NCBI GenBank assembly: GCA_021846065.1
Contig: JAJZCP010000005.1
Coordinates: forward strand, 1-22,302
DNA from: Acidobacteriota bacterium
GTDB taxonomy: Bacteria; Acidobacteriota; Terriglobia; Terriglobales; Acidobacteriaceae
Length of the DNA: 22,302 nt
Direction of reading: 5' to 3'
Below, piece by piece: positions 581-18,771 of this stretch. A program made the position numbers and the translations under genes. The stretch's first letter is position 1. Every line of letters begins with the position of its first letter. A model generated the notes under the pieces. That model did no database searches and was not told the DNA's origin. It saw only the letters and a list, made by a program, of their open reading frames with translations.

Positions 581-596
581 TGGCGTTGTACGTGCA
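581..596 (+). promoter_or_regulatory. sigma-54 (-24/-12) promoter of the EPS operon
   Basis: TGGCGTTGTACGTGCA, preceded by TT, matches the RpoN consensus TGGCACGNNNNTTGCW. The GG and GC dinucleotides have the required 10-nt spacing, and the TGGC and TGCA blocks are intact. The predicted start of transcription is near 607, just ahead of the ATG at 621. The first gene is itself a sigma-54 activator, so autoregulation is plausible. It has not been tested. Confidence 0.68.
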
Positions 597-620
597 TGGT
601 TAGGGCCGAGTGAAAAAACC

Positions 621-1646
621 ATGCAACTAATTTCACCAACGTTCTCGTCCATGCCGGAGCTACTGGGAAACTCCCCGGCGATGTCGGCTGTGCGCCATCA
701 GGTGCAGCTGGCAGCGTCGGCAGGCATGCCGGTACTGATTACGGGCGAGAGCGGCACTGGGAAAAACGTGGTTGCCCAGAATCTGCACATGCTGTCGGGG
801 CGGCGGGACAGGGCGCTTGTCCAGGTGAATTGTCCGTCCCTGCCGCATACGCTGATTGAAAGCGAGCTGTTCGGCTACGAGCAAGGCGCGTTTACGGGAG
901 CGAACCATACCCGCAACGGGAAGGTGGAACAAGCGCAGAATGGCACGCTGTTCCTGGATGAAATTGGCGATCTGGATGCGACCGTGCAAGCGAAACTGCT
1001 GCAGGTGCTGCAGGATTTCCGATTCAGCCGTCTCGGCGGAACGGAAGAGCGGGTTGTGGATATCTGGCTGATCTGCGCCACCCATCGCAACCTGCAGGCG
1101 GACATTAAAGCCGGCCGGTTCCGCTCCGATTTGTATTACCGCATCAATGTTGTTTCGATCGAGTTGCCGTCTCTGCGGGACCATCGTTCCGATGTACCGC
1201 TGCTGTTGAACCATTTTCTGCGCCACTATGAGCTGAAGTTTGGCCGTTCGCTCGATCCACTCTCCAGCTCGGTGCGCAAACTGCTCGAGTCGTATCACTG
1301 GCCCGGGAACGTGCGGGAACTGGAGAACCTGGTAAAGCGCTACGTGGTGCTGGGGACGGAACAGGCGATTGTAGAAGCGCTGAACGGCAGCGATACAACC
1401 TCCGCACTCTCGCCCTTTATTCCTGACAGCAATCTTCCACTGCGAATCCAGACCCAGCGGGCGGTGCGCGTGATGGAGCGACAGATCATATTGCGCGCCT
1501 TGAACGAGCACAGGTGGAACCGCAGGAAGACCGCCCAGTCGCTCGATATCAGCTATCGGGCACTGCTCTACAAGATCAAAGATGCTGGCCTACCCCGACT
1601 GCGGCATACAGGTTCGGGCGCATGTTCCCCTGAGGAGAACCGATGA
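621..1646 (+). CDS. sigma-54-dependent transcriptional activator (no receiver domain)
   Basis: This is a 341-residue bacterial enhancer-binding protein that should couple ATP hydrolysis to opening of RNA polymerase-sigma-54 complexes. Visible motifs are Walker A GESGTGK (42-48), the sigma-54 contact loop GAFTGA (89-94), Walker B TLFLDE (109-114), the arginine-finger region FRSDLYYRIN (167-176), WPGNVRE (227-233) and a Fis-like helix-turn-helix (about 285-325). Only about 20 residues precede the AAA+ core, so there is no receiver, GAF or PAS domain, and activity may be set by expression level or a partner protein. The frame is open back to 423 and has another ATG at 537, but the start at 621 fits the promoter at 581-596 and the start of family homology. 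The stop overlaps the next ATG (ATGA). The location fits a pathway-specific EPS regulator, functionally like PrsR of PEP-CTERM systems but lacking PrsR's receiver. Confidence 0.93.
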   Translation: MQLISPTFSSMPELLGNSPAMSAVRHQVQLAASAGMPVLITGESGTGKNVVAQNLHMLSGRRDRALVQVNCPSLPHTLIESELFGYEQGAFTGANHTRNGKVEQAQNGTLFLDEIGDLDATVQAKLLQVLQDFRFSRLGGTEERVVDIWLICATHRNLQADIKAGRFRSDLYYRINVVSIELPSLRDHRSDVPLLLNHFLRHYELKFGRSLDPLSSSVRKLLESYHWPGNVRELENLVKRYVVLGTEQAIVEALNGSDTTSALSPFIPDSNLPLRIQTQRAVRVMERQIILRALNEHRWNRRKTAQSLDISYRALLYKIKDAGLPRLRHTGSGACSPEENR

Positions 1647-2356
1647 AGAGTGGAAAAGAAATACAGGGTCGACTCGCACAATTCGCAGTGGCCGTTGCGA
1701 TGGTGGGTTTGACCTGCGGCTATTTGCATGGCCAGGCGGAGCCATCTCCCAGCCAGGTATTCAACACGCCCGACAATACCCCCGCGGCGCCGGTCGGCAC
1801 CTCGTTCAAGACGCAGGCGGGTGACACGGCGTTGGCGCGTCCGGATACGCGGGTAACGCCGATCATGGACTCCAGGTATCGGATCGGCGCGGACGATGTG
1901 CTGACCATCAATGTCTGGCATGAGCCGGAAGTATCGCGCAATGTTCCGGTGCGGCCGGATGGAAAAATTTCTCTTCCTCTGGTGGGAGATGTGCAGGCCG
2001 CCGGTCTGACGCCGACGGAACTGCAAAATGAGCTGGAGGCGAGCTTCACGAAGTATCTGACGGACCCCGACGTGAGCGTGATTGTTGCCGAGATTCGCAG
2101 TCAGCGGGTGAATGTTCTGGGTCAGGTTCAGCGTCCGGGGACGTATGCGCTGATTCCTCCGATGAGCGTCATTGATGCGATTGCGACGGCGGGTGGATTG
2201 AGGGAATTCGCAAAGCCGAACAAGATGTATGTCCTGCGCGTCTTGCCCAACGGTCAACAGGAGCGGCTGAAGTTTCAATATAGCAACGTGCTGAAGGGCA
2301 AGAAGGGCAGCAAGGACATCCTGCTGCAGACTCGCGATACCGTGGTGGTTCCATGA
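1643..2356 (+). CDS. polysaccharide export protein (Wza-like, Poly_export/SLBB)
   Basis: A 237-residue exported protein of the outer-membrane polysaccharide export family. An N-terminal signal peptide is visible (hydrophobic stretch about 13-30, possible cleavage after HGQA). There is no good lipobox, although a Cys lies near the cleavage region. The Poly_export domain starts at YRIGADDVLTINVW and is followed by RPDGKISLPLVGDV. An SLBB-type beta-grasp follows, from RVNVLGQVQRPGTY through DAIATAGG. It is short compared with E. coli Wza (about 380), lacking further SLBB repeats and the C-terminal helix, like the shorter export proteins of EPS/XrtA loci. A GAGGAG site lies 5 nt before the ATG, and both ends overlap neighbouring genes by ATGA. 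It probably forms the periplasmic or outer-membrane part of the EPS channel with the next gene and the Wzz-like protein. Confidence 0.9.
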   Translation: MKSGKEIQGRLAQFAVAVAMVGLTCGYLHGQAEPSPSQVFNTPDNTPAAPVGTSFKTQAGDTALARPDTRVTPIMDSRYRIGADDVLTINVWHEPEVSRNVPVRPDGKISLPLVGDVQAAGLTPTELQNELEASFTKYLTDPDVSVIVAEIRSQRVNVLGQVQRPGTYALIPPMSVIDAIATAGGLREFAKPNKMYVLRVLPNGQQERLKFQYSNVLKGKKGSKDILLQTRDTVVVP

Positions 2357-3765
2357 GAAAGTTCCAGTCGTTTCATCGACGGATTGGGAGGAGGCTGTTG
2401 GCCTTTGTCGCGGCGCTGTGCATGGCTTCATGGCTGCTGCTGATGCAGGCGAATCGGGCCTTGGCGCAGGCGGTTCCGGCCGGCAGCGGGGGTACCAATC
2501 CCGCCGATCAGCCGCTGGCTGGGCAAAGTCTGGGATCGAGCCTGACGCTCAATCAAGGAGTGAACGCGATCGGCGCGGAGAACGAGTCGTTCGATCGGTT
2601 TGGATTGGGCCTGACGGCATCGGGGGGCGAAGTGACAAATTTGTTAGGCACCCAGACCAACCAGCAGAACGCGGCCTATGCGCAGTTCCTCGCGAGCGCC
2701 GGGTTGAAACTGCAAAGCAGCCGGACGCACTACTACGCGCTGTATCAGCCCCAATACACTACTTATCCGCAATTCTCCGCAGTCAACAATTTTGGCCAGG
2801 CCTTTTATCAGACCCTCAATCACGCCATGTCCGAGCGCACGGTGGTGGAGTGGGACACAACCGCGGCCCGCTATCTGAGTCTCAATGAGTATGTGCCGCA
2901 ATCGCTTGCCATCGGGGGAATTGGAGTTGCCGTACCCTCGCTGGGCACGCAATTGCTGGAAAACAGCTTTGAGATGACGAACGCGGCCACCACTGTCAGC
3001 CTCCGGCATTTGATAAGCGCGCGGATGACGTTTACGGGCACGTTGACAGGAGCCTATATTTTGATGGTTCCTGCGGCCAATGTCGCGGGAGCGAATCCGG
3101 ACATCGCGGAGAGGTTCATCACCAGCGGGGCAGACCTGCGGCTGGACTATCAATGGACGCCGCGCGATAGTGTCGGTGTCGAGGCAACTCCCGTGTACAT
3201 GTACGGCCTGCGGCCGGGGGGGCACGAGGCATTGGAAACCGTGCAAGGCGTTTATCAACGGCAGCTGAGCTCAACTCTGACCGCCAGGGTGGGCGTGGGG
3301 CCGCTCTTTGCTCAGTCTTCCAGTGCGTTGTTTGGCAGTGCGAACGATACGAGTTATGCCATAACCGCTTCGATCAGCCGCCAGGTCCGGCAGTCCCAAT
3401 TCTCGGCCACATACAGTCGCGCGCTGATGGTGGATATATTCGAGCCCCCGATTGTGGCCGATACTGCCGTTGGTAGTGCCTATCTCCCCATGGGGAGCCA
3501 TTGGATTTTCAGCGGAGCGGGGTCGTACGTCTATATGGGCGCAAGCGCGACCTATGGGTATGGCGCCGGAGATTTTTATGGCGGCTCGGGGCAAATCGCC
3601 TATCAATTGACATCGAAAATGCAACTGTTCGCTCTCTTCTCCCTGCTTTCCGAAACTTTTTCAATCGGGCCAGGACAGCCGTCGGTTGGGTTCACCCAAA
3701 ATCGCTTCGGCGGCGGAATCCAATTCAACCTTGGCAATGCAATCACCCGTGGAGGTGCGCAGTAA
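2353..3765 (+). CDS. outer-membrane beta-barrel protein of the EPS operon
   Basis: A 470-residue protein with a long signal peptide: basic residues 1-14, a hydrophobic core, and likely cleavage after about residue 39 in an LAQA context. The mature part has repeated alternating hydrophobic/polar segments rich in aromatics, Ser, Thr and Gly and almost no Cys, as expected for a beta-barrel. The last strand is FGGGIQFNLGNAITRGGAQ rather than one ending in Phe. I assign no precise family. Position suggests the role of EpsL-type or TIGR03016-type outer-membrane proteins found between the export protein and chain-length genes of XrtA-type EPS loci. It overlaps the previous gene (ATGA), and its TAA shares one base with the next ATG (TAATG). 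Confidence 0.78.
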   Translation: MRKFQSFHRRIGRRLLAFVAALCMASWLLLMQANRALAQAVPAGSGGTNPADQPLAGQSLGSSLTLNQGVNAIGAENESFDRFGLGLTASGGEVTNLLGTQTNQQNAAYAQFLASAGLKLQSSRTHYYALYQPQYTTYPQFSAVNNFGQAFYQTLNHAMSERTVVEWDTTAARYLSLNEYVPQSLAIGGIGVAVPSLGTQLLENSFEMTNAATTVSLRHLISARMTFTGTLTGAYILMVPAANVAGANPDIAERFITSGADLRLDYQWTPRDSVGVEATPVYMYGLRPGGHEALETVQGVYQRQLSSTLTARVGVGPLFAQSSSALFGSANDTSYAITASISRQVRQSQFSATYSRALMVDIFEPPIVADTAVGSAYLPMGSHWIFSGAGSYVYMGASATYGYGAGDFYGGSGQIAYQLTSKMQLFALFSLLSETFSIGPGQPSVGFTQNRFGGGIQFNLGNAITRGGAQ

Positions 3766-5249
3766 TGGAACGTAAACCACCCTCGTCTCTCGGCGATATT
3801 GTCTCCGTTATCCAACGCCGCAAGTATTGGATCATCGTTCCTTCCGTCTTCTTGATTGCGGTGGGTGTGGCGCTGATACCGCTGGTACCGCGCACCTACA
3901 AATCGACTGCCACCATCATGGTGACAGCGCAGAGGATGCCCTCCGTCTATGTGAAATCGAACGGCGGCGGTGACGGGACAACGCGCCTGGAGGAAATCAA
4001 CCTGCAGGTGATGAAGGGGACAGGGTTCCCCGAGATCATCGAGAAGTACAATCTCTACCCCAAGCTGCGCAAGAAGGCCAGCATGACTCGCGTGATTGCT
4101 GTTATGCGCAAGGACATCTCCGTCGACGAGGTGCCAGACGCGGAAGACGGCAGAGGAGGAGTTTTAGCCTTCACGATCTCCTACACCGGCGCTACTCCGC
4201 AGCAGGCGCAAGAGGTGACCAAAGCACTCACAGAGTTATTCATGGACGAAAACCTGCGAGAGGGACGCGAGAGGGCCGAAGGAGCGTACGCTTTTCTGAC
4301 CTCGCAGATGAATGCAGCGGCCGAGCGATTGACAGCGCAGCAGGCGAAGATACAGGCATTCAAGATGTCGCACCTGGACAGTCTGCCGGAGCAGGCGCAG
4401 GCGAACATGCAGATGATCAGCCAGACGCAGGCTGCGTTGCAAACCAACGAGGATGCGCTGACTCAGGCGAGCCAGCAGCGCGTGTACTTGCAGTCCGTGC
4501 TGAACGTGAAACAAAACGGCGACCAGGGAATCTCGGCGCCGGCGCCTGCCTCGCCGCTGGAAGTGGAACTGGCCCAGAAACAGCAGGAGCTGCGTGCCGA
4601 CCTGCTGAAATATACGCCCCTATATCCAGACGTAGTGCGGCTGAAGCACGACATCGCTGTATTGAAGGATGAGATCAAGAATGCTCCACCGGCGACGAGT
4701 GCGGCGTTTGTCGCGCAGACGCCGCAACTGACCGGGCCTTCCATAAACGATCAGCTTAGAAGCCAACTGATTGCGCTGAATGTGGACATCAAGGCGCGGC
4801 AGGCCCGTCAACAGCAGTTGGAACAGCGGCTTGCCCATCTGCAGGGATCGGTGGGCGGATTGCCGGCGGTGCAGACGCAATTTGCCGCACTGAACAGCGA
4901 CTACGAGGAAATGCAGAAGAATTACAACGCGTTGCTGGAACAGCAGCAGGAAGCGGCCATGGTGACGGCGCTAGGTCAACGCGATCAAGCCCAGCAATTT
5001 GCTGTGGCCGAACCGGCGAATCTTCCAGTGCTGCCGTTCACCCCGAATCCGCTGTTGTTGAACATGGCCGTGGTATTGCTGGGACTGCTCGTAGGATTCA
5101 TCTGCGCACTAGTGGTGGAGGTCGGCGACGATACCATGCATGATTCCGACGAGGTGGCTGCGTATCTGAAGCTGCCGGTGATGGTCGCTCTGCCAAAATG
5201 CTTGAATCTTGCCGATGGGACATGGGACGCGGCCACGCTCAAAAGCTAG
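3765..5249 (+). CDS. Wzz/GNVR-type EPS chain-length determinant
   Basis: A 494-residue inner-membrane polysaccharide co-polymerase. The first membrane segment is about 21-41 (YWIIVPSVFLIAVGVALIPL). A long periplasmic part has coiled-coil helices rich in Gln, Ala and Glu. A Pro-rich stretch (LPVLPFTPNPLLLN) leads into the second membrane segment at about 430-453, a hallmark of the family. The cytoplasmic tail of about 38 residues has no ATPase domain; the kinase is the next gene, the split arrangement common in Gram-positive and XrtA-type loci. The ATG at 3765 is chosen over upstream in-frame starts because GGAGGTG lies 8 nt upstream and family homology begins there. The family controls EPS chain length by oligomerising around the export complex. 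Confidence 0.93.
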   Translation: MERKPPSSLGDIVSVIQRRKYWIIVPSVFLIAVGVALIPLVPRTYKSTATIMVTAQRMPSVYVKSNGGGDGTTRLEEINLQVMKGTGFPEIIEKYNLYPKLRKKASMTRVIAVMRKDISVDEVPDAEDGRGGVLAFTISYTGATPQQAQEVTKALTELFMDENLREGRERAEGAYAFLTSQMNAAAERLTAQQAKIQAFKMSHLDSLPEQAQANMQMISQTQAALQTNEDALTQASQQRVYLQSVLNVKQNGDQGISAPAPASPLEVELAQKQQELRADLLKYTPLYPDVVRLKHDIAVLKDEIKNAPPATSAAFVAQTPQLTGPSINDQLRSQLIALNVDIKARQARQQQLEQRLAHLQGSVGGLPAVQTQFAALNSDYEEMQKNYNALLEQQQEAAMVTALGQRDQAQQFAVAEPANLPVLPFTPNPLLLNMAVVLLGLLVGFICALVVEVGDDTMHDSDEVAAYLKLPVMVALPKCLNLADGTWDAATLKS

Positions 5250-5306
5250 GTATTTCCATCCTAGCAGCTACATCAGACAGGGAAGCGAGATCAGGGAGAA
5301 CTACCG

Positions 5307-6164
5307 ATGAGAACGACGAATATTCAGCAGGAAGGTGCCGCAGTGAAGCCAATCGAACCGAAAATCAAGTCCACGTCTGAACCCGCTGTTCTGTATCCGC
5401 GTCCGATCGGCGACCAGGAGTTGGCGGCACAGCGCGTGGATCTCGCCAAGGTTAGCCAGTCGCTGGTCACGCTGGCGCCCGCAGAGGCAGCTCTCAATCC
5501 GAAGCAGCAGGTGATGGCGGAACAGTTCCGTCTGCTGCGAACCAGGGTGAAGGCTCTGAGCAAAGATTTTCAACTGCGCACCATGCTGATTACGAGCACG
5601 CTGTCCGGCGAAGGGAAGACTACGGTGGCGGCCAATCTGGCTGGGTCGCTGAGCGGTGTCGAGGGACTGCGCGTGCTGCTGATCGACTTCGATCTGCGGC
5701 GGCCCTGCTTGCACACAATCTTCGGCGTGGAGCCGGACCGGCGTACTTTGACCTCCTGGCTGACAGGGGAGACGCCGTGGCAGCGTGCCATCTACCAGGT
5801 CAATCGTAGATTGGACGTGCTGTTCGGCTTCGATCCACTGGAGGAGCCGGACCTGCTGCTGCAAAGCAGCCGATTGGAGAAGCTGCTGAAGGAGATGAAA
5901 GCCGAGTACGACGTGATGATTCTGGACTCGGCGCCGATGCTGGTCGTGGCCGATACCCACTCCCTGGTGCCGCTGGTGGACTGCGCGCTCTTTGTTCTGA
6001 ATGCCGACAATACGCCGATTCGCAGCGCGCGGGAGGCACTGACCATGCTGCAGGATAAGGTGGCGGGTTGCGTGGTGAATCGCATTCAACACCTGAAGAG
6101 CGAAGATTACTATCGCAATTCCGGGTACGGCTACGGATACCGATCGAAGCGCAAGGAGAGCTGA
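5307..6164 (+). CDS. BY-kinase-like tyrosine autokinase/ATPase (CpsD/XrtA-associated type)
   Basis: A 285-residue cytoplasmic P-loop ATPase. It shows the family entry motif EQFRLLRTRV (73-82), Walker A STLSGEGKTT (97-106), a Walker A-prime block LLIDFDLRRP (124-133) and Walker B VMILDSAP (203-210). The usual DADLRRP is DFDLRRP here, with both Asp kept. The C-terminus carries five tyrosines (268, 269, 274, 276, 278) in a Gly/Tyr tail followed by basic residues, the typical autophosphorylation cluster. It should work with the preceding Wzz-like protein in a phosphorylation cycle that controls polymer length and export. The 57-nt gap before it is the longest between genes at the front of this operon. 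A GGGAG site precedes the ATG; an in-frame GTG at 5343 is a less likely start. Confidence 0.92.
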   Translation: MRTTNIQQEGAAVKPIEPKIKSTSEPAVLYPRPIGDQELAAQRVDLAKVSQSLVTLAPAEAALNPKQQVMAEQFRLLRTRVKALSKDFQLRTMLITSTLSGEGKTTVAANLAGSLSGVEGLRVLLIDFDLRRPCLHTIFGVEPDRRTLTSWLTGETPWQRAIYQVNRRLDVLFGFDPLEEPDLLLQSSRLEKLLKEMKAEYDVMILDSAPMLVVADTHSLVPLVDCALFVLNADNTPIRSAREALTMLQDKVAGCVVNRIQHLKSEDYYRNSGYGYGYRSKRKES

Positions 6165-6165
6165 C

Positions 6166-7551
6166 ATGTTTCGCATGTTCAACCTGTATGTGCCGTCCAG
6201 CAAATTGCTCTTGATGGTAGCCGACGCCCTGCTGCTGGCGACGGGATGCTTTTTGTTGTTTCGACCGCTGGCTCCCGCGGACACGCTGGCCGACGTGCAG
6301 CTCTATGTCGTAGTCCTGCTGGTTGCCATAGTCGGGATATGGTCGTTTTATTTTTCCGATCTCTACGAGAATGCAACGCTGCGCAGCAAGCAAACGGTTT
6401 TGGTGTCAGGCCTGCGCGGGCTGGGATTGAGCGCACTGCTGCTGACGCCGCTGGTCTGGCTGTTGGCGCGCAATCGCCTGACGCACGATCATTTCATCGA
6501 GCCTGCACTGGCATTGATTCTGATTGTGTTGTATCTGCAGCGCCGGGTCTCCGACTGGTGGCAACGCAGAATGAGCAGCGGCGAACGGGTGCTGCTGGTT
6601 GGCTCCGGGGTGACGGTGCAGTTGCTGGCCGAACAACTGGCAGGGAAATGCGGCCTGCCGTTGAAGCTGGCGGGAGTTGTGCTCGACCAAAGTCGTCCGC
6701 TGCCGCAGGATTTTCGATTTGCCGTGGTGGGGAATGTGGACCGGCTGCGCGACCTGACCCGTTCGTTCCGTCCGGATCGGATCGTGATCAGCTCCGAGAT
6801 TGGTGTATCCACGGTGTCGGTGGCCGACTTGCTTGCATTGCGACGCATTGGGATTCGGGTGCAGGACGCGGGGGAGTTGTACGAATCGGTGACCGGCCGT
6901 GTTCCTGTCGAGTCGGTCCGGTCGAATGGGCTGGCGTTCGGAGCCGCTCTGGTTCCTACTCCCATGAAGCGCTCGTTCCATCGAGCCGCCAGTTTTGTAG
7001 CGGCTGCGATATTGACTGTTTTGTTAGCGCCTATCGGAATGTTGATCGCGATTGCCGTGAAGCTGGAATCCGAAGGGCCAGTCTTCTATACGCAGGAACG
7101 CGTTGGCGCGGGCGGGCGCACGTTTCGCGTGATCAAATTCCGCTCCATGCGTCAGGATGCGGAGAGCGCCTCGGGACCGGTCTGGGCTACCACCAAGGAT
7201 TCGCGGGTGACGCGGGTTGGGGTTGTACTCCGTAAGCTGCGTCTGGACGAACTGCCGCAGGTGATCAACGTGCTGCGCGGCGAGATGTGCCTGGTTGGCC
7301 CGCGCCCGGAGAGGCCGCATTTCGTGCGGATGCTCGAAGAGAAAATTACCTACTACGACCTACGGCACTGCATCCCACCGGGGATTACCGGCTGGGCGCA
7401 AGTATGCGCGGACTATGGGTCGAATGTAGAGGAATCGCGCACCAAGCTGGAATACGACTTGTTTTACGTCAAGAATGCTTCCCTGCTGTTTGACCTGTTG
7501 ATACTTTTCAAAACCGTAAAGATTGTCCTGTGCGGGCGTGGGTCTCGCTGA
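6166..7551 (+). CDS. undecaprenyl-phosphate sugar phosphotransferase (EpsB/WcaJ-like)
   Basis: A 461-residue membrane enzyme predicted to start EPS synthesis by transferring a sugar-1-phosphate from a UDP-sugar to undecaprenyl phosphate. Four N-terminal membrane segments lie within about 10-125, followed by a Rossmann-like region (LVGSGVTVQLLAEQLA), a fifth hydrophobic segment (about 275-300) and the catalytic bacterial sugar transferase domain. Visible motifs there are QERVGAGGRTFRVIKFRSM, LRKLRLDELPQVINVLRGEM, LVGPRPERP and PPGITGWAQV. The C-terminus (EYDLFYVKN, then VKIVLCGRGSR) closely resembles the EpsB family associated with XrtA/PEP-CTERM loci (TIGR03013), as I recall it. AAGGAG precedes the start, which lies one base after the kinase stop. 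Confidence 0.92.
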   Translation: MFRMFNLYVPSSKLLLMVADALLLATGCFLLFRPLAPADTLADVQLYVVVLLVAIVGIWSFYFSDLYENATLRSKQTVLVSGLRGLGLSALLLTPLVWLLARNRLTHDHFIEPALALILIVLYLQRRVSDWWQRRMSSGERVLLVGSGVTVQLLAEQLAGKCGLPLKLAGVVLDQSRPLPQDFRFAVVGNVDRLRDLTRSFRPDRIVISSEIGVSTVSVADLLALRRIGIRVQDAGELYESVTGRVPVESVRSNGLAFGAALVPTPMKRSFHRAASFVAAAILTVLLAPIGMLIAIAVKLESEGPVFYTQERVGAGGRTFRVIKFRSMRQDAESASGPVWATTKDSRVTRVGVVLRKLRLDELPQVINVLRGEMCLVGPRPERPHFVRMLEEKITYYDLRHCIPPGITGWAQVCADYGSNVEESRTKLEYDLFYVKNASLLFDLLILFKTVKIVLCGRGSR

Positions 7552-7610
7552 TTCCGCCGCTTCCCTGGGGCGCAGATGGTAGTGCCGCGAGGGCAACAAA
7601 GGAGAACGAT

Positions 7611-9816: not shown

Positions 9817-9840
9817 CGGCTCCAAAAAAACTAGGATCGA

Positions 9841-10914: not shown

Positions 10915-10933
10915 CGGTCTCCTCCTGGGAATA

Positions 10934-10949
10934 AGCATGTGGAGGGCCA
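10934..10949 (-). promoter_or_regulatory. sigma-54 promoter of the deacetylase gene
   Basis: Read on the minus strand this is TGGCCCTCCACATGCT, preceded by T to give TTGGC. The -24 TGGC and -12 TGCT blocks have exact GG-N10-GC spacing. The predicted start is near 10923, which would leave AGGAGA at the very 5' end of the message, 9 nt before the ATG. The position directly before a start codon supports it. Confidence 0.65.
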
Positions 10950-11031
10950 ATCGTGAATACGAGTAACTCGCGCTGGTAACCCTCGCGGATGTGGCCGGTG
11001 GCCGCAGGCAGGACGGAAAACAAGTTGAGCA

Positions 11032-11051
11032 ATGTGCAATCTGCTGCACAT
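11032..11051. promoter_or_regulatory. perfect inverted repeat ATGTGCA-N6-TGCACAT, candidate activator site
   Basis: Two 7-nt arms, ATGTGCA (11032-11038) and TGCACAT (11045-11051), separated by 6 nt. The centre is about 118 nt upstream of the predicted start of the deacetylase transcript, a normal distance for a sigma-54 activator site. It is also about 220 nt upstream of the weaker candidate promoter on the plus strand. Binding by the activator encoded at 621-1646 is inference. Confidence 0.4.
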
Positions 11052-11233
11052 GATGCGGCGTCGATAGGCTGGACCGGTCTTACATTCCCCGAGGAGGCGA
11101 GTGCGAACCCACACGCGTCGCCTGCTGAGCGGGTTTCAGCGCACCGGTCCCTGCCTGTATATGGTTTGCCTGCGTGCGATTCCGGGCAATCTCCGAGGAA
11201 GGTAAGACAAGATCCGCCGGGCGATTCGTGAAA

Positions 11234-11249
11234 CGGCCACGGAATTGCA
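11234..11249 (+). promoter_or_regulatory. possible sigma-54 promoter ahead of a micro-ORF
   Basis: CGGCCACGGAATTGCA has a perfect -12 block (TTGCA) and exact spacing, but the -24 block is CGGC instead of TGGC. The predicted start is near 11260. That gives an untranslated leader of about 180 nt before the 31-residue ORF at 11440. It is weaker than the other matches. The remainder of 10950-11439, apart from the inverted repeat at 11032 and short ACCGGTCC/GGACCGGT elements (11071-11078, 11143-11150), shows no gene I can support. Confidence 0.35.
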
Positions 11250-11439
11250 TTAGTTGAGGGTGCACCACAGTTGGCGCCGCAGTGTCTCAGAGCGCGTCGG
11301 CAAGGATGTGGCCCCGGTTCATCTCGACACGGTCCGCCCGTGGCTGGGATCGACGTGGGGCTAAAGAATCGTTGGCCTGTTCTAGGGTTCGCATTGCTGC
11401 GCTTTTCAGGAGGAGTTTGCAGATAGAAGGGACACTTAC

Positions 11440-11535
11440 GTGACACTATTACAACTGATGTTACTTCCGTCCGCGGCTGCGGGTCTTGTGTTATTTGCCT
11501 GCATGATCGTTCAAAGCGTTCGTCGCGAATGGTAG
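11440..11535 (+). CDS. 31-residue membrane micro-ORF
   Basis: GTG at 11440, stop TAG at 11533-11535. The ribosome-binding sequence GAAGGGA lies 7 nt upstream, and a GGAGGAG lies further up. The product starts TLLQLMLLPSAAAGLVLF and continues ACMIVQSVRREW, so it is essentially one membrane helix with a short basic end. An internal ATG at 11458 would give 25 residues. A strong hairpin begins 5 nt after the stop, giving the look of a free-standing unit. I do not recognise a family. The layout LPS, hydrophobic stretch, then RR vaguely recalls a C-terminal sorting signal, but there is no preceding protein in frame (a TAG lies shortly upstream). Confidence 0.42.
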   Translation: MTLLQLMLLPSAAAGLVLFACMIVQSVRREW

Positions 11536-11539
11536 AGGC

Positions 11540-11572
11540 CACGCTGGGACGATGAGGGATCGGCCCAGCGTG
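11540..11572 (+). terminator. strong hairpin after the micro-ORF (terminator or attenuator)
   Basis: CACGCTGGG (11540-11548) pairs perfectly with CCCAGCGTG (11564-11572). Inside, after one A/G mismatch, CGAT pairs with ATCG around a GAGGG loop. Only a short T-run (CGTTT) follows, so it may terminate weakly or act as an attenuator or mRNA-stabilising structure before the GT4 gene. The following 11573-11829 shows no further gene and no sigma-54 match. Confidence 0.55.
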
Positions 11573-11829
11573 CGTTTGGATGCCACTACAACCGGTTCTG
11601 GGGCGGTGCTGAAAGGCTGCCCCGGATCTCTTGGGACGAATTGTAGAAACGAATCGGATATCACAGGGTGCCTGTGCTGACTCGGGATATCCCACAATCT
11701 GAGGGCAGCGGAGTCCGGCTTCCTCGCAGTCGGCAACGATCGATGCTGAGGGCATTTGACGATTGCGGATCCGATTTAGGTAGTTGCATTCCGGTTGGAG
11801 GAAATTTGGGAAATCAAGGCTTGGCGAAG

Positions 11830-13014
11830 ATGCAATTTTTGGACGAGGATGAAGCGGTGGCCGAGGAAATGGTATGGAAACCGCGCATTCTCTTTCTGAT
11901 CGACGAAATCGGCGGCATCGCTGAAGGCGGAACCGAGCGGCAGGTGCTGCAACTGATCGAGTTGGCGCAGAGGCTGGGCTATGAGCCACGGCTGGCCGTT
12001 CTCCGCGGAACGGAATGGCTGAGCGAAGGACAAGCCGGGTGTCCGATGTACTTTGCTCGGGTCGGCAGTATGCTGCGTCCTTCCGGATGGCTCGGATGTC
12101 TGAGACTCGTTCGCTGGATGCGGCAGGAACGGATTAGCCTGGTACAGACGTTTTTTGTCGAGTGCAACACGGTTGGGCCGTGGCTGGCACGCCTGGCTGG
12201 CGTGCGGGTGGTAATCGGTTCACGCCGCAATTTGAACCAATGGCACGGCCGCACGAAGTGGATGAAACCTGTGATCGATCTATTTCAGAAACTGGCGAAT
12301 TTGTTCACCGATTGCGTGGTGGCAAACAGTCTGGTCGTGGCGGAAATGACGGCAGCGACAGAGCGTGTGCCGCAGCGGAAATTGCACGTTGCGTACAACG
12401 GCATCGATCTGGCAAAGTTCTCTAAATTGGATCGACTGCGGGATCAAGCCCGACGAATGCTGGGAATCGCCGAGGATGAAATCCTTGTTGGCAATATCTC
12501 CTGCATGCGGGAGGTGAAGGGAATTCCGCAATTTGTGGACGCGGCCCGCATCGTGCTGGCCACTGACCCGCGGATGCGATTTGTGGTGGTCGGAGACGGC
12601 CAGGAATATGCTCAGGTAGTGGAACGGATTCGACGGTACGGGATCGAGGATCGAATCCATCTGGCCGGCCCTCAGGCGGATGTTTTGCCCTACCTGGCGG
12701 CAATGGACATTGGCGTGCTTAGCTCTCTGGCGGAGGGATTTTCCAACTCGCTGCTGGAGTATATGGCCAGCGGACTGCCGTCGGTGGCGACGGATGTAGG
12801 CGGCAATCGCGAGGCATTGGAGGATACCGGAATTCTAGTGCCGCCCGACGATCCGGCAGCGTTGGCAGAAGCGATTCTTCGCCTGCAAGCGCCGACGTTG
12901 CGGCAGCAAATGGGCCATGCGGCACGACGGCGCGTGGAATGCTTCAGTCTGGCGCGTGCCGAGCAGCGAATGGAAGAGATTTACGGCGACTTGCTACAAG
13001 CAAAGGGAAGTTAA
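11830..13014 (+). CDS. GT4 family glycosyltransferase
   Basis: A GT-B glycosyltransferase of 394 residues from the ATG at 11830. The N-terminal half begins PRILFLIDEIGGIAEGGTERQ. The donor half has VGNISCMREVKGIPQFVDAA, a VVVGDGQE strand, and SSLAEGFSNSLLEYMASGLPSVATDVGGNREAL, the typical GT4 acidic motif. The start is uncertain. An in-frame TTG at 11806 has a better GGAGG site, 4 nt upstream, and would add eight residues. The frame stays open to 11668, but that part is not GT4-like. The gene lies 31 nt before the dehydrogenase, so the two are probably co-transcribed. The promoter is unclear; read-through from the micro-ORF unit past its hairpin is one option. Confidence 0.88.
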   Translation: MQFLDEDEAVAEEMVWKPRILFLIDEIGGIAEGGTERQVLQLIELAQRLGYEPRLAVLRGTEWLSEGQAGCPMYFARVGSMLRPSGWLGCLRLVRWMRQERISLVQTFFVECNTVGPWLARLAGVRVVIGSRRNLNQWHGRTKWMKPVIDLFQKLANLFTDCVVANSLVVAEMTAATERVPQRKLHVAYNGIDLAKFSKLDRLRDQARRMLGIAEDEILVGNISCMREVKGIPQFVDAARIVLATDPRMRFVVVGDGQEYAQVVERIRRYGIEDRIHLAGPQADVLPYLAAMDIGVLSSLAEGFSNSLLEYMASGLPSVATDVGGNREALEDTGILVPPDDPAALAEAILRLQAPTLRQQMGHAARRRVECFSLARAEQRMEEIYGDLLQAKGS

Positions 13015-13045
13015 CCGCAGGACGATTGAAGGAGAAACGACCGGC

Positions 13046-14488
13046 ATGGAACATTACGACAAAACGAAGGATGCGACTGCATCCCGAACCATTGGATCTG
13101 TGGGCACGGCCACGGCGGAGACAGGCGCGGCGACTGCCGAGTCCAGTACGGATTCGCCGATGCGGACCATCCAGGATCGCTCGGGCCAGGTCGGCGTGGT
13201 CGGGCTGGGATACGTTGGCTTGCCGCTGGCGATGCTGTTCGCCCGCGCCGGTTTTCCGGTCACCGGATTCGATGTGGACCGCAGCAAGGTGAACAAGCTG
13301 AACGCGGGTTCTTCGTATATCCAGCGCATTCTGCCGGAAGAGATTGCGCAGTTACGCGAGTCGGGATTTAAAGCAAGCGCCGAATACGCGGATGTCAGCA
13401 AGATGCAGGCAATCATCATTTGCGTGCCCACGCCGCTCGATGAGCATCAGGGGCCGGATCTTCGCTTTATCGAAGATACCGCCCGCTCGCTATCTCCCCA
13501 TCTTCGCGCCGGGCAACTGGTCATTCTGGAAAGCACGACATATCCGGGCACAACGGAAGAGGTCCTGATCCCGCTGCTGGAAGCGAACAATCCAGAGGGA
13601 CTCCGCTGCTACCGGGAGGGCCTGGATCCGGCAAAGTGTTTCTATGTGGCCTATTCTCCCGAGCGCGAGGACCCGGGCAACGTGACCGTGGAACGCAGCG
13701 ACATCCCCAAGGTCGTCGGGGCATCGACGAAGGAGTCGGGGGACCTGGCGGCGGCGTTTTACGGCAGCATCTTCCATCGCATCATTCGCGTATCGAGCCC
13801 GGCAGCGGCGGAGATGACGAAGCTGCTGGAAAACATCTACCGGTGCGTGAATATCGCCCTGGTGAACGAACTGAAACTGCTGTGCCTGCGGATGGGGCTG
13901 GATATCTGGGAGATTATCGATGCCGCCGCCACCAAGCCGTTTGGATTCCAGCCGTTTTATCCCGGCCCCGGCCTGGGCGGACACTGCATTCCCATCGATC
14001 CTTTCTATCTTTCGTGGAAGGCGAAAGAACTGGACTTCAGCACTCGCTTCATTGAACTGGCGGGCGAAGTGAATACTTCCATGCCCTACCATGTGGTTGA
14101 GTCAGTGATGGCCGCGTTGAACGATCGCAGCAAGCCGCTGAAGGGCAGCCGCATTCTGGTTCTGGGGCTGTCGTACAAGAAGGACATCGACGATCTGCGC
14201 GAGTCGCCGTCGTTGACATTGATCGAACAACTGCGCCGCCGCGGCGCGCTGGTCGAGTACAACGACCCTTACTTTCCCACGGTGGGTCATGGGCGCCATT
14301 ATGCTCTCAACATGACCTCTGTTCCCCTGGATACGATTCGGGACTACGATTGCGTACTGATCGCTACCGACCACTCCGATTACGACTACGAGCAGATTGC
14401 ACGGGAGGCGCAATTGGTGGTCGATACGCGCAATGCGACTCGTCGTATCGTGGACGCTGAGCTGCAGAAGAAGATTATTCGCTGTTAG
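13046..14488 (+). CDS. UDP-N-acetylhexosamine (or UDP-glucose) 6-dehydrogenase
   Basis: A 480-residue nucleotide-sugar dehydrogenase that should oxidise C6 of a UDP-sugar to a uronic acid with two NAD+. The Rossmann motif is VGVVGLGYVGLP (49-60). The catalytic Cys is C314 in GPGLGGHCIPIDPFYLSW. That GGHCIPIDP form is closer to WbpA/TviB/WecC-type UDP-GlcNAc or UDP-ManNAc dehydrogenases than to UDP-glucose dehydrogenase. The C-terminal domain has SRILVLGLSYKKDIDDLRESPS. Residues 1-40 are a low-complexity Ala/Thr/Ser/Gly-rich extension ahead of the usual start. AAGGAGA lies about 10 nt before the ATG. It supplies an acidic sugar precursor to the EPS. The exact substrate is inference. Confidence 0.93.
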   Translation: MEHYDKTKDATASRTIGSVGTATAETGAATAESSTDSPMRTIQDRSGQVGVVGLGYVGLPLAMLFARAGFPVTGFDVDRSKVNKLNAGSSYIQRILPEEIAQLRESGFKASAEYADVSKMQAIIICVPTPLDEHQGPDLRFIEDTARSLSPHLRAGQLVILESTTYPGTTEEVLIPLLEANNPEGLRCYREGLDPAKCFYVAYSPEREDPGNVTVERSDIPKVVGASTKESGDLAAAFYGSIFHRIIRVSSPAAAEMTKLLENIYRCVNIALVNELKLLCLRMGLDIWEIIDAAATKPFGFQPFYPGPGLGGHCIPIDPFYLSWKAKELDFSTRFIELAGEVNTSMPYHVVESVMAALNDRSKPLKGSRILVLGLSYKKDIDDLRESPSLTLIEQLRRRGALVEYNDPYFPTVGHGRHYALNMTSVPLDTIRDYDCVLIATDHSDYDYEQIAREAQLVVDTRNATRRIVDAELQKKIIRC

Positions 14489-14789
14489 TAACGCAAGTAT
14501 TGACAGAAAGATCGACGTGTTGCACCCGCAACGTACAGCAACTGCCTTCCGCGCTGCCCAATCAGGCGACCGGGAGGCGGTTGCCGTTTTGACGATATCG
14601 TGCTGATTTTCCGTTCCGGCGACGGTTTTGCCCTGATGAAGGGCGAATAGGAAAAACTTTTCACACTCGTTATCGGAATGGGAACTCTTTTAGCTGAAAC
14701 GGCGGCAATCATCCAGTTTTGTCGACTCATTCGTTCAACCTGCCCCGTCGTTTCAGGATACTCACAAACATCTTCCGAGTGCCCTTGCT
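14489..14789. other. intergenic region with small dyads
   Basis: No gene is supported here. Two small perfect stem-loops are visible: GTTGC-ACCC-GCAAC (14519-14532) and GCCCT-GATGA-AGGGC (14630-14644). Neither is followed by a T-run, so neither is a clear terminator for the dehydrogenase gene. The first is about 290 nt upstream of the predicted sigma-54 start at 14816 and could be a protein site. Confidence 0.35.
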
Positions 14790-14805
14790 TGGCATCCTAC
14801 GTGCA
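14790..14805 (+). promoter_or_regulatory. sigma-54 promoter of the acyltransferase operon
   Basis: TGGCATCCTACGTGCA, preceded by T (TTGGC), matches the RpoN consensus in both blocks with exact spacing. It shares its last eight bases (TACGTGCA) with the promoter at 581-596. The predicted start is near 14816, leaving a 31-nt leader to the ATG at 14847. Confidence 0.68.
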
Positions 14806-14846
14806 ACCTACCAACGGGTAGCCGTTAATTGAAAGCCTGGCAACCG

Positions 14847-15056
14847 ATGAATCTCGTTACCTTAATTGCCTTGATAGCGTGTATTTGCGAAGTTTGGTTC
14901 CATCGCGTCCTGAGACGGGGGCGATTGATGGGTGAGGTGTTGGCGACGCAGCCTGGGCGTCTAGGCCTACCCTCCGCAGCATTGGCGGGGCGCTCGAGAT
15001 TGCATGTATCGGAAGCTCAGATCCTCGGCACCGCTAGCGAGGAGGGCTGCCGATGA
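14847..15056 (+). CDS. 69-residue small protein with N-terminal membrane segment
   Basis: The ORF runs from an ATG at 14847 to a TGA that overlaps the ATG of the next gene (ATGA at 15053-15056). It lies directly downstream of a sigma-54 promoter. Both points argue that it is translated. Residues 1-17 (MNLVTLIALIACICEVW) are hydrophobic, then a basic RVLRRGR stretch stops the helix, followed by a soluble tail of about 45 residues. No family is recognised. The ribosome-binding site is weak; an in-frame TTG at 14829 would add six residues. It could be a membrane partner of the acyltransferases. Confidence 0.5.
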   Translation: MNLVTLIALIACICEVWFHRVLRRGRLMGEVLATQPGRLGLPSAALAGRSRLHVSEAQILGTASEEGCR

Positions 15057-16324
15057 GCGATCCTGTGCGCCATGAAGGTACCGTTCGCGGACTTGCGGGT
15101 GCCGCTTCGGCGAAGAATGCCAAATCGAAGCCGACGGTGACCACGACGATCCGGTTTCTTGAGACAGAGCGGGAATGGAATGCGCCGTTGGTGCAGCAAG
15201 CATGGCACCAGTTGCTGACAGAAACGACTAATCCCAACGCGCTTTTCTCGACGCCGGAGTGGTACGAGAACAAGCGCAAGACAAAAGGGGAGGAACTACG
15301 AGTCGCGGTGGTGGAAAACGACGCCAAGATCATCGCCATTGCACCCTTCCTGCTGGGGCAACAGGAATTTTATCTAAAATTTTACCGGATGCGATTTCGG
15401 ACCGCGCAGCTTCTCGGCGGAGAAGGCTTGACGCAGCGACAGGAGGGGTATGAGCTACTGTTCAAGGCGATTTTTCGGACCTTCGATGTGGCAGGCATTC
15501 ACTTCCGGCTATTGTCCACGGAAAGTCCTTGCTGGAAGGCCGTGCAATCGTCGCGGGCGGGGTTTGTTCAAGTCCACGACCGGCTAAAGATGTACCTCGT
15601 GAATCTGCCGCCAACCCTCGATGCATACCTCTCGGCACGGTTCGACTCGTCCCATCGCAGGAATTTGAAACACCGCGTGAAGTTGCTGCGGGAGCAGGGG
15701 GAGCACAGACTCTGGCGTTGCTCGGCATGTACCGCGGCCCCGGAATGCGCGCGGTTGCGGGAGAAGGGAGAACTTCGACTGCAACGGATCAGCGCACCGG
15801 AGGACATACCGGAGTTTCTCCACGCAGGGGGCCAGGTCGCGCAGGCTTCCTGGCAAGCAAGGGAGGCGGAATGGTTGGTCAAGGAAACGCCGGAATGGAA
15901 CGCGCATCTGAGCGACTTGGCAACCCAGGGACTCCTTCGTTCCTATCTCTTGTGGTGCGGCCCGGCGCCATGCGCGTATGCGCTGGGGTTTCAAGGTGGA
16001 GGGTGCTATCAGGCCTACTCGATCGGCTACGACCAATCCATGGCGAAGTTTTCCCCCGGAACGGTCATGTTGCTGTTGCTACTGGAGGACCTGATGCAGC
16101 ACGACCGTCCGGAGAAATTCAACTTTGGCGGCGGAGAGAACGAATACAAGCGAAGGTTTGCGACCGAGGCGGCAGAAGTGAGGAATGTCACGATACTGCG
16201 GCGGTCGATCATGGGCGGTCTGAGGGTCGCTGGATTCTGGTTCTATCGGTTTCTGGGAGAGATGAGACGAAACCGAGGCGTTTCGGCGGCGAAAAGACTT
16301 CTTTTCTCAAGGAAGGCGACATGA
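15053..16324 (+). CDS. CelD/BcsL-like (FemAB-fold GNAT) acyltransferase, copy 1
   Basis: A 423-residue protein of the GNAT/FemAB superfamily of the type annotated as CelD/BcsL, acetyltransferase involved in cellulose biosynthesis. Visible landmarks are NALFSTPEWYENK, LRVAVVENDAKIIAIAPFLL, RTAQLLGGEGL, FDSSHRRNLKHRVKLLREQG, SYLLWCGPAPCAYALGFQ, YSIGYDQSMAKFSPGTVMLL and KFNFGGGENEYKRRFA. The last is the usual C-terminal Gly-rich/E.YK motif. An unusual insertion with CSACTAAPEC repeats the flanking LREQGEHRLWR-like segment. The probable role is acylation of the EPS or its precursor; the acyl donor is unknown. GAGGAGGG precedes the ATG. The stop overlaps the next copy by ATGA. Confidence 0.85.
   Translation: MSDPVRHEGTVRGLAGAASAKNAKSKPTVTTTIRFLETEREWNAPLVQQAWHQLLTETTNPNALFSTPEWYENKRKTKGEELRVAVVENDAKIIAIAPFLLGQQEFYLKFYRMRFRTAQLLGGEGLTQRQEGYELLFKAIFRTFDVAGIHFRLLSTESPCWKAVQSSRAGFVQVHDRLKMYLVNLPPTLDAYLSARFDSSHRRNLKHRVKLLREQGEHRLWRCSACTAAPECARLREKGELRLQRISAPEDIPEFLHAGGQVAQASWQAREAEWLVKETPEWNAHLSDLATQGLLRSYLLWCGPAPCAYALGFQGGGCYQAYSIGYDQSMAKFSPGTVMLLLLLEDLMQHDRPEKFNFGGGENEYKRRFATEAAEVRNVTILRRSIMGGLRVAGFWFYRFLGEMRRNRGVSAAKRLLFSRKAT
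15673..15780 (+). repeat. near-identical tract shared by the tandem acyltransferase genes, copy 1
   Basis: These 108 nt match 16938-17045 with only three mismatches, and the first 57 nt are identical. The flanking parts of the two genes are clearly more diverged in DNA. The tract encodes the region around the Cys-containing insertion. Confidence 0.9.
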
Positions 16325-17694
16325 GCGAACGCCTGCAAAATGCTGTGGCCATCTCTGAAACTGGGGGCCGCCTTCAGGTGGTCAATGGCGAGTCCGACCG
16401 AGCGAAGCCAACTGTCCGATTCATTTCGACAGAGCGCGAATGGAATGCCCCGCGGGTGCAGGAGGCGTGGCGGCGATTGATGGCTGCCAGCGCGAATCCC
16501 AGCGCGCTGTTTCAATCTCCGGAATGGTTTGAGAACAAGCACAAGACAAAACGCGAGGAGTTACGAATTGCCGTCGTCGAAAACGATGGGACGATCACAG
16601 CCATCGTTCCCTTATTGCTGGGGAAACAGGAATTTGATCTCAAGCTTTGGCGCACGCGGTTCAGGACCGCACAGCTTCTTGGGGGAGAAGGCCTGATGCA
16701 GGAAGAGGCGTATGAGTCGCTGTTCGAGACGATCTTCCAAACATTCGACGATGTGGACGCCATTCATTTCCGCCTGTTGTCTACGGAAAGTCTGTGTTGG
16801 AAGGCAGTGCAATCGTCGCAGGCTGGCCTTGTTCACGTCCACGACCAACTCAAGATGTACATCGTGGATCTGCCGCAATCATTCGATGAATACCTGGCGG
16901 CGAGGTTCGATTCGAAGCACCGGGGGAACTTGAAACGCCGCGTGAAGTTGCTGCGGGAGCAGGGGGAGCACAGACTCTGGCGTTGCTCGGCATGCACCGC
17001 GTCCCCGGAATGCGCGCGGTTGCGAGAGAAGGGAGAACTTCGACTTCAGCGGATCAGCGCGCCGGAGGACGTGCCGGAGTTTCTACGAGCTGGGGGCCAG
17101 GTCGCGCAGGCCTCCTGGCAGGCGGCGAAGGCGGATTACCTGATCAAAGAAACACCCGCATGGAAAGCACATCTTACTGATCTGGCGAAACGCGGACTCC
17201 TCCGTTCGTATCTCCTGTGGTGTGGCCCGCAGCCCTGTGCCTATAAGCTCGGATTCCAAGGGGGCGGATACTATTACGGCAGCTCTACCGGCTACGACCA
17301 ATCGATGGCGAAGTTTTCCCCAGGTACGGTCATTCTGTTGCTGACCATTGAGGACTTGATACAACACAATCATCCAGGAAAGCTAAACTTTGGCGAAGGA
17401 GAGGATGAATACAAGCGAGAGTTTGCGACTCAGGCGGTCGAGGTGGCGAATGTCACGATGTTGCGGCCGTCGATTCTGGGAACTTTGAGAGTCGCTGGAT
17501 TCGAGACGTACCGGTTCTTGAAGTACGTGAGACGGCGAAAGAAGGATTGGGCTGAGAAAGCACGAGATTCCTTTTCCAAGAGGTGGCGAATGGGTCGGAG
17601 CAAGGGAAAGATCCACGTTGCTCATCTGGGCCAACGCGGGTGCGGCTATCTTAGCGAGAGAATGCGGATCGCTCGAATCGGGAAACGGGTTTGA
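16321..17694 (+). CDS. CelD/BcsL-like (FemAB-fold GNAT) acyltransferase, copy 2
   Basis: A 457-residue paralogue of the preceding gene, alignable over nearly its whole length (for example NPSALFQSPEWFENK, RTAQLLGGEGLMQ, STGYDQSMAKFSPGTVILLL, KLNFGEGEDEYKREFA). The start at 16321 overlaps the previous stop by ATGA. The frame is open further upstream to 15529, but that part overlaps copy 1 and is not homologous. The C-terminus is about 34 residues longer than copy 1 and very basic (RRRKKDW, then KRWRMGRSKGK), perhaps membrane- or polymer-binding. It is probably co-translated with copy 1 and may act on a different sugar position or donor. Confidence 0.85.
   Translation: MSERLQNAVAISETGGRLQVVNGESDRAKPTVRFISTEREWNAPRVQEAWRRLMAASANPSALFQSPEWFENKHKTKREELRIAVVENDGTITAIVPLLLGKQEFDLKLWRTRFRTAQLLGGEGLMQEEAYESLFETIFQTFDDVDAIHFRLLSTESLCWKAVQSSQAGLVHVHDQLKMYIVDLPQSFDEYLAARFDSKHRGNLKRRVKLLREQGEHRLWRCSACTASPECARLREKGELRLQRISAPEDVPEFLRAGGQVAQASWQAAKADYLIKETPAWKAHLTDLAKRGLLRSYLLWCGPQPCAYKLGFQGGGYYYGSSTGYDQSMAKFSPGTVILLLTIEDLIQHNHPGKLNFGEGEDEYKREFATQAVEVANVTMLRPSILGTLRVAGFETYRFLKYVRRRKKDWAEKARDSFSKRWRMGRSKGKIHVAHLGQRGCGYLSERMRIARIGKRV
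16938..17045 (+). repeat. near-identical tract shared by the tandem acyltransferase genes, copy 2
   Basis: Partner of 15673-15780, with three mismatches in 108 nt. Such a sharp island of identity inside diverged paralogues suggests gene conversion. Confidence 0.9.
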
Positions 17695-17785
17695 CGAGCG
17701 CCGGAAAGAATCAACTGGATGCGACGAAGAATCATGCGCCGACGGTACCAGAAAAGATGAACTGTGTTGAGCAATTGCCTGCAAG

Positions 17786-17802
17786 ACGACGGTAGACGTC
17801 GT
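17786..17802. promoter_or_regulatory. inverted repeat ACGACG-GTAGA-CGTCGT next to a promoter
   Basis: Perfect 6-nt arms with a 5-nt loop, ending 5 nt before the -24 element at 17808. It has no T-run, so it is not a classical terminator for the acyltransferase operon. It could be an operator or a weak hairpin. Slightly upstream (17766-17775) is GTTGAGCAAT, a 10-mer also found at 11024-11033. Confidence 0.35.
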
Positions 17803-17807
17803 GGAAA

Positions 17808-17823
17808 TGGCCGGACGATTGCT
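17808..17823 (+). promoter_or_regulatory. sigma-54 promoter of the antiterminator/ACP operon
   Basis: TGGCCGGACGATTGCT has perfect TGGC and TTGCT blocks with exact GG-N10-GC spacing. The predicted start is near 17834, giving a leader of about 150 nt before the NusG-like gene. The leader holds a TATGG...CCATA pairing (roughly 17865-17895), which could matter for an RNA-guided antiterminator. Confidence 0.62.
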
Positions 17824-18595: not shown

Positions 18596-18771
18596 ACCGG
18601 CCGATTGGCGATTCCGCCGCCGGGTTAGGAGACGTACATGCGAAGTTCACGGGCCAAATTCAAAGGATGGTCAGCAACGTGCAATGGAAGCCGACGTCTG
18701 ACGCGATCCAGCAATCTGCCGTGTTTCAATCGTTTGTAAAATTCCAAACCGAGCGAAAGGGTAAACCATGA
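18592..18771 (+). CDS. 59-residue conserved-context small ORF, function unknown
   Basis: ATG at 18592 overlaps the stop of the NusG-like gene, and its TGA overlaps the ATG of the next gene. The ORF therefore fills the gap exactly, with 4-nt ATGA overlaps on both sides. That arrangement strongly suggests a translationally coupled gene. The product is soluble, hydrophilic and likely helical (segments AKFTGQIQRMVSNVQW and AVFQSFVKFQTERKGK), with no membrane segment and no Cys. I recognise no family. It may be a partner of the oxidase-like protein or of the ACP pathway. Confidence 0.6.
   Translation: MNRPIGDSAAGLGDVHAKFTGQIQRMVSNVQWKPTSDAIQQSAVFQSFVKFQTERKGKP

Follow-up and report, generated by a model that had tools for sequence, protein, structure and literature searches.

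Predicted sigma-54 promoters, an upstream box and a pair of activators at an acidobacterial exopolysaccharide locus

Does a single sigma-54 switch, with its activator encoded in the locus, govern the separate transcription units of an exopolysaccharide (EPS) locus in an acidobacterium? The question is raised by a stretch of 22,302 nucleotides from an Acidobacteriaceae genome (contig JAJZCP010000005.1 of assembly GCA_021846065.1, positions 1 to 22,302), here called the window, in which an initial annotation made from the sequence alone had listed strong -24/-12 elements at the heads of several EPS units. We find it very likely from the sequence comparisons that predicted sigma-54 promoters lie before at least four of the units, and likely that a pair of activators encoded at the locus acts through an upstream box. 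On balance the window is probably a sigma-54-controlled EPS locus of a Terriglobia-type soil acidobacterium, with the full two-activator model as the best explanation. The comparison set was 61 genomes, 10 of the same genus and 51 from outside it. The nearest, G001, has 73% of sampled 31-mers in common with the window and is about 98.6-99.2% identical to it across the two contigs that cover the locus. Several of the genomes that carry the activator are incomplete; G005 is listed as 100% complete. Coordinates are given in Table 1, and elements are referred to by their first position.

The -24/-12 elements

The pattern had originally been written TGGC-N9-TGCW, with strong matches at 581, 14790 and 17808 on the + strand and at 10934 on the - strand. 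All four 16-mers are present, but the N9 pattern has three matches in the window and none at these places; it was rejected on that ground, and the coordinates fit TGGC-N8-TGCW, that is GG-N10-GC. The N8 pattern has 10 matches in the window, where the initial annotation had expected one or two by chance; the shuffle mean was 2.38, the largest value was 6 and none of 100 shuffles reached 10. Six of the matches (2423, 4408 on the - strand, 5065, 6668, 9614 and 19574) are inside called genes and had not been listed. The other four are those named above, and it is correct that each lies directly before a unit, all being intergenic and oriented towards the next gene. Four intergenic matches compare with a shuffle mean of 0.18, and none of 2000 shuffles reached four (gene limits here are our own calls, and only segments longer than 100 bp were shuffled).

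Genome-wide the bare N8 pattern is unspecific: the nearest genome, of 3.4 Mb, has 506 matches, and 231 of the reversed control pattern. It was dropped as a test of specificity because matches are too common, and conservation must therefore decide. A scan with the general consensus and three mismatches allowed was uninformative (46 matches, 39 expected). Of 28 matches of the longer pattern TTGGC-N5-ACGTGCW across the 10 genus genomes, 15 fall at the locus; the 13 elsewhere compare with 12 for a control pattern over all ten, and outside the locus the pattern is thus at background. The gene for RpoN (PF04963) is present in nine of these ten genomes.

With regard to conservation, the lack of which in related genomes had been named in advance as an observation that would speak against these elements, the upstream alignments show that 581, 10934 and 14790 are kept, and 11234 as well. 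In the case of 581, TGGC-N8-TGCW is present in all nine rows (the window and eight genomes, from two genera), mean identity is 0.90 in the element and 0.50 in the region, and 12 of 466 upstream windows are equally or more conserved. The DNA upstream of the activator gene is mostly diverged, with two conserved islands, the 581 element and the box at 365 discussed below. G001, G005, G010, G003 and G008 all have the 14790 element; it is absent in G007, and the G009 contig stops short of the site. For 10934, GG-N10-GC is found in five of five rows and TGGC-N8-TGCW in four (G003 has TGGT), and the element is nearer to consensus in relatives (TGGCACTCCACGTGCT in G005, TGGCACGCAACGTGCT in G008) than in the window; judged on the alignments we take it to be the weakest of these three conserved cases. 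The 11234 element, which has GG-N10-GC, had been ranked as a weaker match, a ranking that does not hold for conservation, as 13 of its 16 columns are invariant in five of five rows and 6 of 507 windows are as conserved or more so. For the window counts the row of G001 was dropped from alignment A1 (upstream of the activator) and those of G001, G007 and G009 from alignment A3 (the 14790 region). The putative element at 17808 is probably the sigma-54 promoter of the antiterminator unit, the first gene of which has no orthologue other than that in the near-identical G001.

The activators and the upstream box

The gene behind 581 does encode a sigma-54 activator, with an AAA+ domain from residue 14, a Fis-type helix-turn-helix (HTH) near the end and a GAFTGA motif, and its Pfam domain content bears out the earlier observation that there is no receiver domain. 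Orthologues 77-99% identical are present in eight genomes, and further relatives, 46-53% identical, include records from Terriglobia and Acidobacteriaceae. A longer open reading frame (ORF) starting at 423 was set aside, the conserved start being the ATG at 621, with the frame open for just six codons further upstream in G005 and G008.

Two copies of a box, GTGTGAAAASTTTTWCC, lie in the window, one at 365 (+), the other at 14650 (-); there is no further match in it at up to three mismatches (0.08 expected). The 365 copy is the most conserved window of the activator upstream region (1 of 465), and the 14650 copy has 16 of 17 columns invariant in the window, G005, G010 and G003 and is present in G008 too. 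Across the 10 genus genomes the 16-bp core of the box matches 12 times and only at these two places of the locus, one match being an overlapping contig end; all seven genus genomes with the activator have it and none of the three without. A looser form has 10 matches in the 61 genomes, four of them outside the genus, which serve as a more independent test. In three of these four (G021, G024 and G037, of three other genera) the gene immediately downstream of the box is for a receiver-less homologue of the activator, 50-51% identical, with the helix ISYRALLYKI. GG-N10-GC elements lie between box and start codon at these three loci (TGGCGCTCGAGGTGCA, TGGCTCTCCGGGTGCA and TGGTGGATGGGGTGCA), two of them TGGC-N8-TGCW and one TGGT-N8-TGCA, and each locus has on the opposite strand a divergent receiver-bearing homologue (51-52% to the neighbour described next). 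A second common motif, AAAAGAGTWCC (211 and 14681), was rejected as weak, with 6 of 100 shuffles reaching two matches and a conservation count of 87 of 471 windows for the 211 copy.

In all eight genomes with an orthologue of the receiver-less activator, a second sigma-54 activator is encoded divergently from it. In G001 this neighbour starts about 0.3 kb beyond the window, and in G005 it has a receiver (PF00072), AAA+ and HTH. Of the 17 sigma-54 activators matched in G005, the helix could be read in 15, and only these two have ISY[RK]ALLYKI, one further G005 activator having the similar VSYKALLNKI. The two proteins have 21 of 41 HTH-region residues identical and the recognition helix differs only in R/K, which suggests that both read one common, putative, binding site. 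The same likeness of the pair is found in G037 and nearly so in Edaphobacter (L009) and bog_368 (L012).

The initial annotation had proposed a different input on the basis of the missing receiver. That idea needs modifying: a second activator that has a receiver adjoins the locus, and as the pair have the same recognition helix the input may enter through the receiver-bearing partner. The two genes after the receiver-bearing activator in G005 are for a DUF6982 protein and a deacetylase, with no kinase; in G037 there is a histidine kinase gene (PF00512, PF02518) ahead of the homologue. The sigma-70-like promoter directed at the neighbour is kept or nearly kept in eight of nine rows and changed in G026. 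Five sigma-70-like sites were found in positions 1-20000 against 7.2 expected in shuffles, so that the site is weak on that count alone.

The units and their genes

Table 1. Positions of predicted regulatory elements and genes in the window
Feature	Position	Strand	Remarks
Sigma-70-like promoter TTGTCA-N17-CAGAAT	163..191	-	directed at receiver-bearing activator outside window
Upstream box GTGTGAAAACTTTTACC, candidate activator site	365..381	+	centre 209 bp before -24 GG of 581
Predicted -24/-12 element TGGCGTTGTACGTGCA	581..596	+	head of unit 1 (activator and EPS export/assembly genes)
Receiver-less sigma-54 activator (bacterial enhancer-binding protein), AAA+ and Fis-type HTH, 341 aa	621..1646	+	PF00158, PF25601, PF02954
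Rest of unit 1: SLBB polysaccharide export, barrel-like, Wzz-like, tyrosine-kinase-like ATPase, sugar-phosphate transferase, glycosyltransferases GT4 and GT2	1643..9816	+	
Unit 2, polysaccharide deacetylase	9841..10914	-	PF01522 on longer ORF; start taken as ATG behind AGGAGGAG
Predicted -24/-12 element TGGCCCTCCACATGCT	10934..10949	-	head of unit 2
Dyad ATGTGCAATCTGCTGCACAT	11032..11051	.	between predicted divergent promoters 10934 and 11234
Predicted -24/-12-like element CGGCCACGGAATTGCA (GG-N10-GC)	11234..11249	+	head of unit 3
32-aa small membrane-type protein, first gene of unit 3	11440..11538	+	about 190 bp after 11234 element
Rest of unit 3: GT4 glycosyltransferase and nucleotide-sugar dehydrogenase	11668..14488	+	
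Upstream box GTGTGAAAAGTTTTTCC	14650..14666	-	centre 133 bp before -24 GG of 14790
Predicted -24/-12 element TGGCATCCTACGTGCA	14790..14805	+	head of unit 4
Unit 4, two FemAB/GNAT-like acyltransferases (PF13480)	15053..17694	+	
Putative -24/-12-like element TGGCCGGACGATTGCT	17808..17823	+	before unit 5
Unit 5: UpxY/RfaH-type antiterminator, haem-oxygenase-like, two alpha/beta hydrolases, acyl carrier protein (ACP)-like protein, AMP-binding enzyme	17987..22302	+	cut by window end

In unit 1 the outer-membrane barrel-like protein is our own reading, without a Pfam match. G007 and G009 keep the activator, the box and the glycosyltransferases and have lost the intervening export, barrel, chain-length and kinase genes. 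There is a group II intron near the locus in G007 (L099, G007:C197).

In the divergent region between units 2 and 3 the dyad at 11032 is equalled or exceeded in conservation by 6 of 503 windows and is the sole match in the window at up to three mismatches; it is a candidate for a second activator site, possible on these counts. The longer deacetylase ORF (to 11049) has a stop in G005, read by eye. The 32-aa protein has matches of 77-91% in G005, G003, G007 and G009 and of 78% in G008. It is conserved where the surrounding DNA is not, and no match to it came up among the families searched, although it was not scanned on its own.

In the case of unit 4 the gene content behind the 14790-type promoter varies, with FemAB-like genes in the window and G001, and in G005, G010, G003 and G008 an adenylation enzyme first and then, where the contig reaches, a gene of polyketide synthase (PKS) type. 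The second FemAB gene and the G003 PKS gene encode the identical first 11 residues, MSERLQNAVAI, and this common start is likely to be a recombination scar of cassette exchange. The start of the second FemAB gene (16321-16353) has some 33 bases, or 11 residues, in common with PKS genes at related loci (L095, L102). A putative small membrane protein of 69 aa (MNLVTLIALIACICEVW...) is encoded at 14847-15056, downstream of the 14790 promoter and ahead of the first FemAB gene.

The small ACP-like protein of unit 5 is again our own reading, without a family match. An element ATGTAACCCACAGAGCGAAGCTAT (window 17909-17932) is common to the leaders of the antiterminator gene and its 71% identical G001 paralogue (L160), both of which have ATGTAACCCACAGNGCGAAGCTAT, and is a candidate recruitment or leader element for a protein of the UpxY/RfaH type. 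We considered a riboswitch upstream of the antiterminator gene but gave up the idea for want of an Rfam match: Rfam gave none in the window up to E 2, and in six relatives nothing other than the group II intron pieces in G007.

Further observations concern loci elsewhere. In G037 (L183, G037:C1:58000-77999) the activator pair, box and histidine kinase are beside genes for DUF3857/transglutaminase-like and beta-propeller proteins, which are not EPS genes; the 20 kb examined gave no homologue of EPS export genes, and the switch may have other targets there. In G024 export genes are some 7 kb off, beside another activator. In G005 (L123, G005:C29:106356) TTGGCACATAACGTGCT lies before a small NifX-like gene (read by eye) that adjoins another sigma-54 activator, and looks like a sigma-54 promoter, putative as yet, of another system.

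A two-activator model and its alternatives

In the model that we prefer, RpoN polymerase would wait at the -24/-12 elements before the units at 581, 10934 (-), 11234 and 14790, and probably 17808, and would fire only after an AAA+ activator, bound at the upstream box, remodels it. The receiver-bearing activator would take the signal and is itself likely to be made from a sigma-70 promoter. The receiver-less activator, having a sigma-54 promoter and box, would probably be self-amplifying, and with near-identical recognition helices the two would probably use one box. The conservation of the elements, the boxes, the gene order, the domains and the co-occurrence across genomes are directly observed. 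Transcription from the elements, the identity of the box-binding protein, the order of the cascade, mixed hexamers and self-amplification are what we infer from this arrangement. In its most detailed form the model is a two-stage switch, in which a phospho-signal activator made from sigma-70 fires at the box of its receiver-less twin, and the twin then amplifies itself and holds the EPS units on, perhaps in mixed hexamers; the module would extend across genera, including cases without adjoining EPS export genes (G037, G021), and one promoter would be a socket for exchanged cassettes (FemAB, or nonribosomal peptide synthetase/PKS). This detailed form we put forward tentatively, as a possibility short of being probable.

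A number of results weigh against the model. By plain identity the 10934 element is unremarkable, with 58 of 507 windows as good or better, and the -24 GG is missing upstream of the G001 paralogue of the antiterminator gene. G007, which is 92% complete, has no PF04963 match for RpoN despite having activator and box. Upstream DNA of distant activator loci was inspected at seven loci only, most distant relatives being unlinked activators, and the full TGGC-N8-TGCW is within 500 bp upstream in only two of the seven. The specificity of the box within the genus is in part by construction, because the box was read off those alignments, and for the looser form the control pattern had 6 matches in the 61 genomes, and two of the matches of the looser form itself, in G034 (the fourth outside the genus) and G005:C63, are away from any activator. 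With regard to the claim of one shared switch, it holds at the level of sequence for the two units with a box (581 and 14790), but no box was found at up to three mismatches near 10934, 11234 or 17808, the other three of the five, and that they share the switch is something we infer.

It is possible, although we have doubts, that binding at the box and control of all the units fall to the receiver-bearing neighbour by itself, the receiver-less protein being either a target or else a subunit with an accessory role in a mixed hexamer. The almost identical helices and the presence of the pair together within the genus and beyond fit this, and there are precedents in HrpR/HrpS and VnfA1/VnfA3. However the receiver-less protein retains AAA+, HTH and GAFTGA and on paper could act alone, and G004 has a piece of the neighbour, in a contig that ends there, with no activator match above 43% and no box. 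We think it unlikely that the input is instead cyclic di-GMP bound by the AAA+ domain, with the receiver-bearing neighbour unrelated: this is suggested by BerB, an activator that has no receiver, depends on RpoN, is encoded beside EPS genes and binds cyclic di-GMP (PMC5552954), but a neighbour having a receiver and the same helix offers the simpler input. Highly improbable in our judgement is that the ACGTGC-type elements are sites for another DNA-binding protein and not sigma-54 promoters. Three sites do have an extra ACGTGC or ACATGC that goes beyond the sigma-54 requirement, but the invariant columns are the -24 GG and the -12 GC at N10 spacing, the 11234 element has the same spacing with a different -12 side (AATTGC), G021 and G024 keep TGGC-N8-TGCW without ACGTGC, and all of the elements are directed at a start codon.

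The PEP-CTERM/exosortase setting with PrsK/PrsR control, in which the locus had first been placed, proved a weak framing. An exosortase (PF09721) was not found in seven of the eight activator genomes, G005 included; G009 has one, on another contig, and in the more distant G033 and G047 exosortases are on the contigs of the activator homologues. The activator (301.8 bits) and its receiver-bearing neighbour in G005 (295.9) are both below the cut-off of 502.6 for the PrsR model TIGR02915. Several of the EPS genes, glycosyltransferases among them, do resemble XrtA-type genes, mostly with scores under the curated cut-offs: 150.9 for export (cut-off 180), 217.7 for chain length (278.9), 115.9 for the kinase (230.7) and 352.7 for the transferase EpsB_2 (393.4). 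Only the XrtA-type deacetylase adjoining the locus in G005 passes (294.5, cut-off 276.2). An ancestral XrtA-type locus that has lost its sorting enzyme in this genus would be a plausible origin.

Among known systems, PrsK/PrsR has a similar layout of two motifs, an activator box upstream of a -24/-12 element, near EPS genes, but there the motifs precede PEP-CTERM genes and are reported only in Proteobacteria (Haft 2006, PMC1569441; PMC9850573), whereas here, in an acidobacterium, they stand upstream of the activator gene and of EPS units, mostly with no exosortase and with two activators below the PrsR cut-off. BerB, like our activator, is a receiver-less sigma-54 activator beside EPS genes and is RpoN-dependent, but it turns on one regulator gene, berA, in control of the Bep EPS of Burkholderia cenocepacia (PMC5552954), whereas here there are elements before several EPS units and the activator gene, and a receiver-bearing partner adjoins. 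EpsI/Nla24 of the Myxococcus xanthus eps locus is likewise an NtrC-like activator encoded in an EPS locus, but a single one, the receiver of which binds cyclic di-GMP (PMC4877007). Paired activators are known in HrpR/HrpS (PMC7057263), both without an input domain where here one of the two has a receiver, and in VnfA1/VnfA3, of a set with like DNA-binding parts for which the same enhancers are predicted (PMC9542535). Sigma-54 control of EPS genes is thus already known from BerB, EpsI/Nla24 and PrsR, and it is the arrangement here that is new and unusually clear. In the literature searched we found no study of sigma-54 control of EPS in Acidobacteria.

Sigma-54 promoters are silent without their activator, and a locus that has several such promoters and encodes the activators for them can therefore be strictly off or on. 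Two activators with one recognition helix, of which one bears a signal input and the other lacks any, amount to a design for a self-locking EPS switch in Acidobacteria that can be put to the test, and the box provides a handle for finding the module elsewhere, with three further genera so far.

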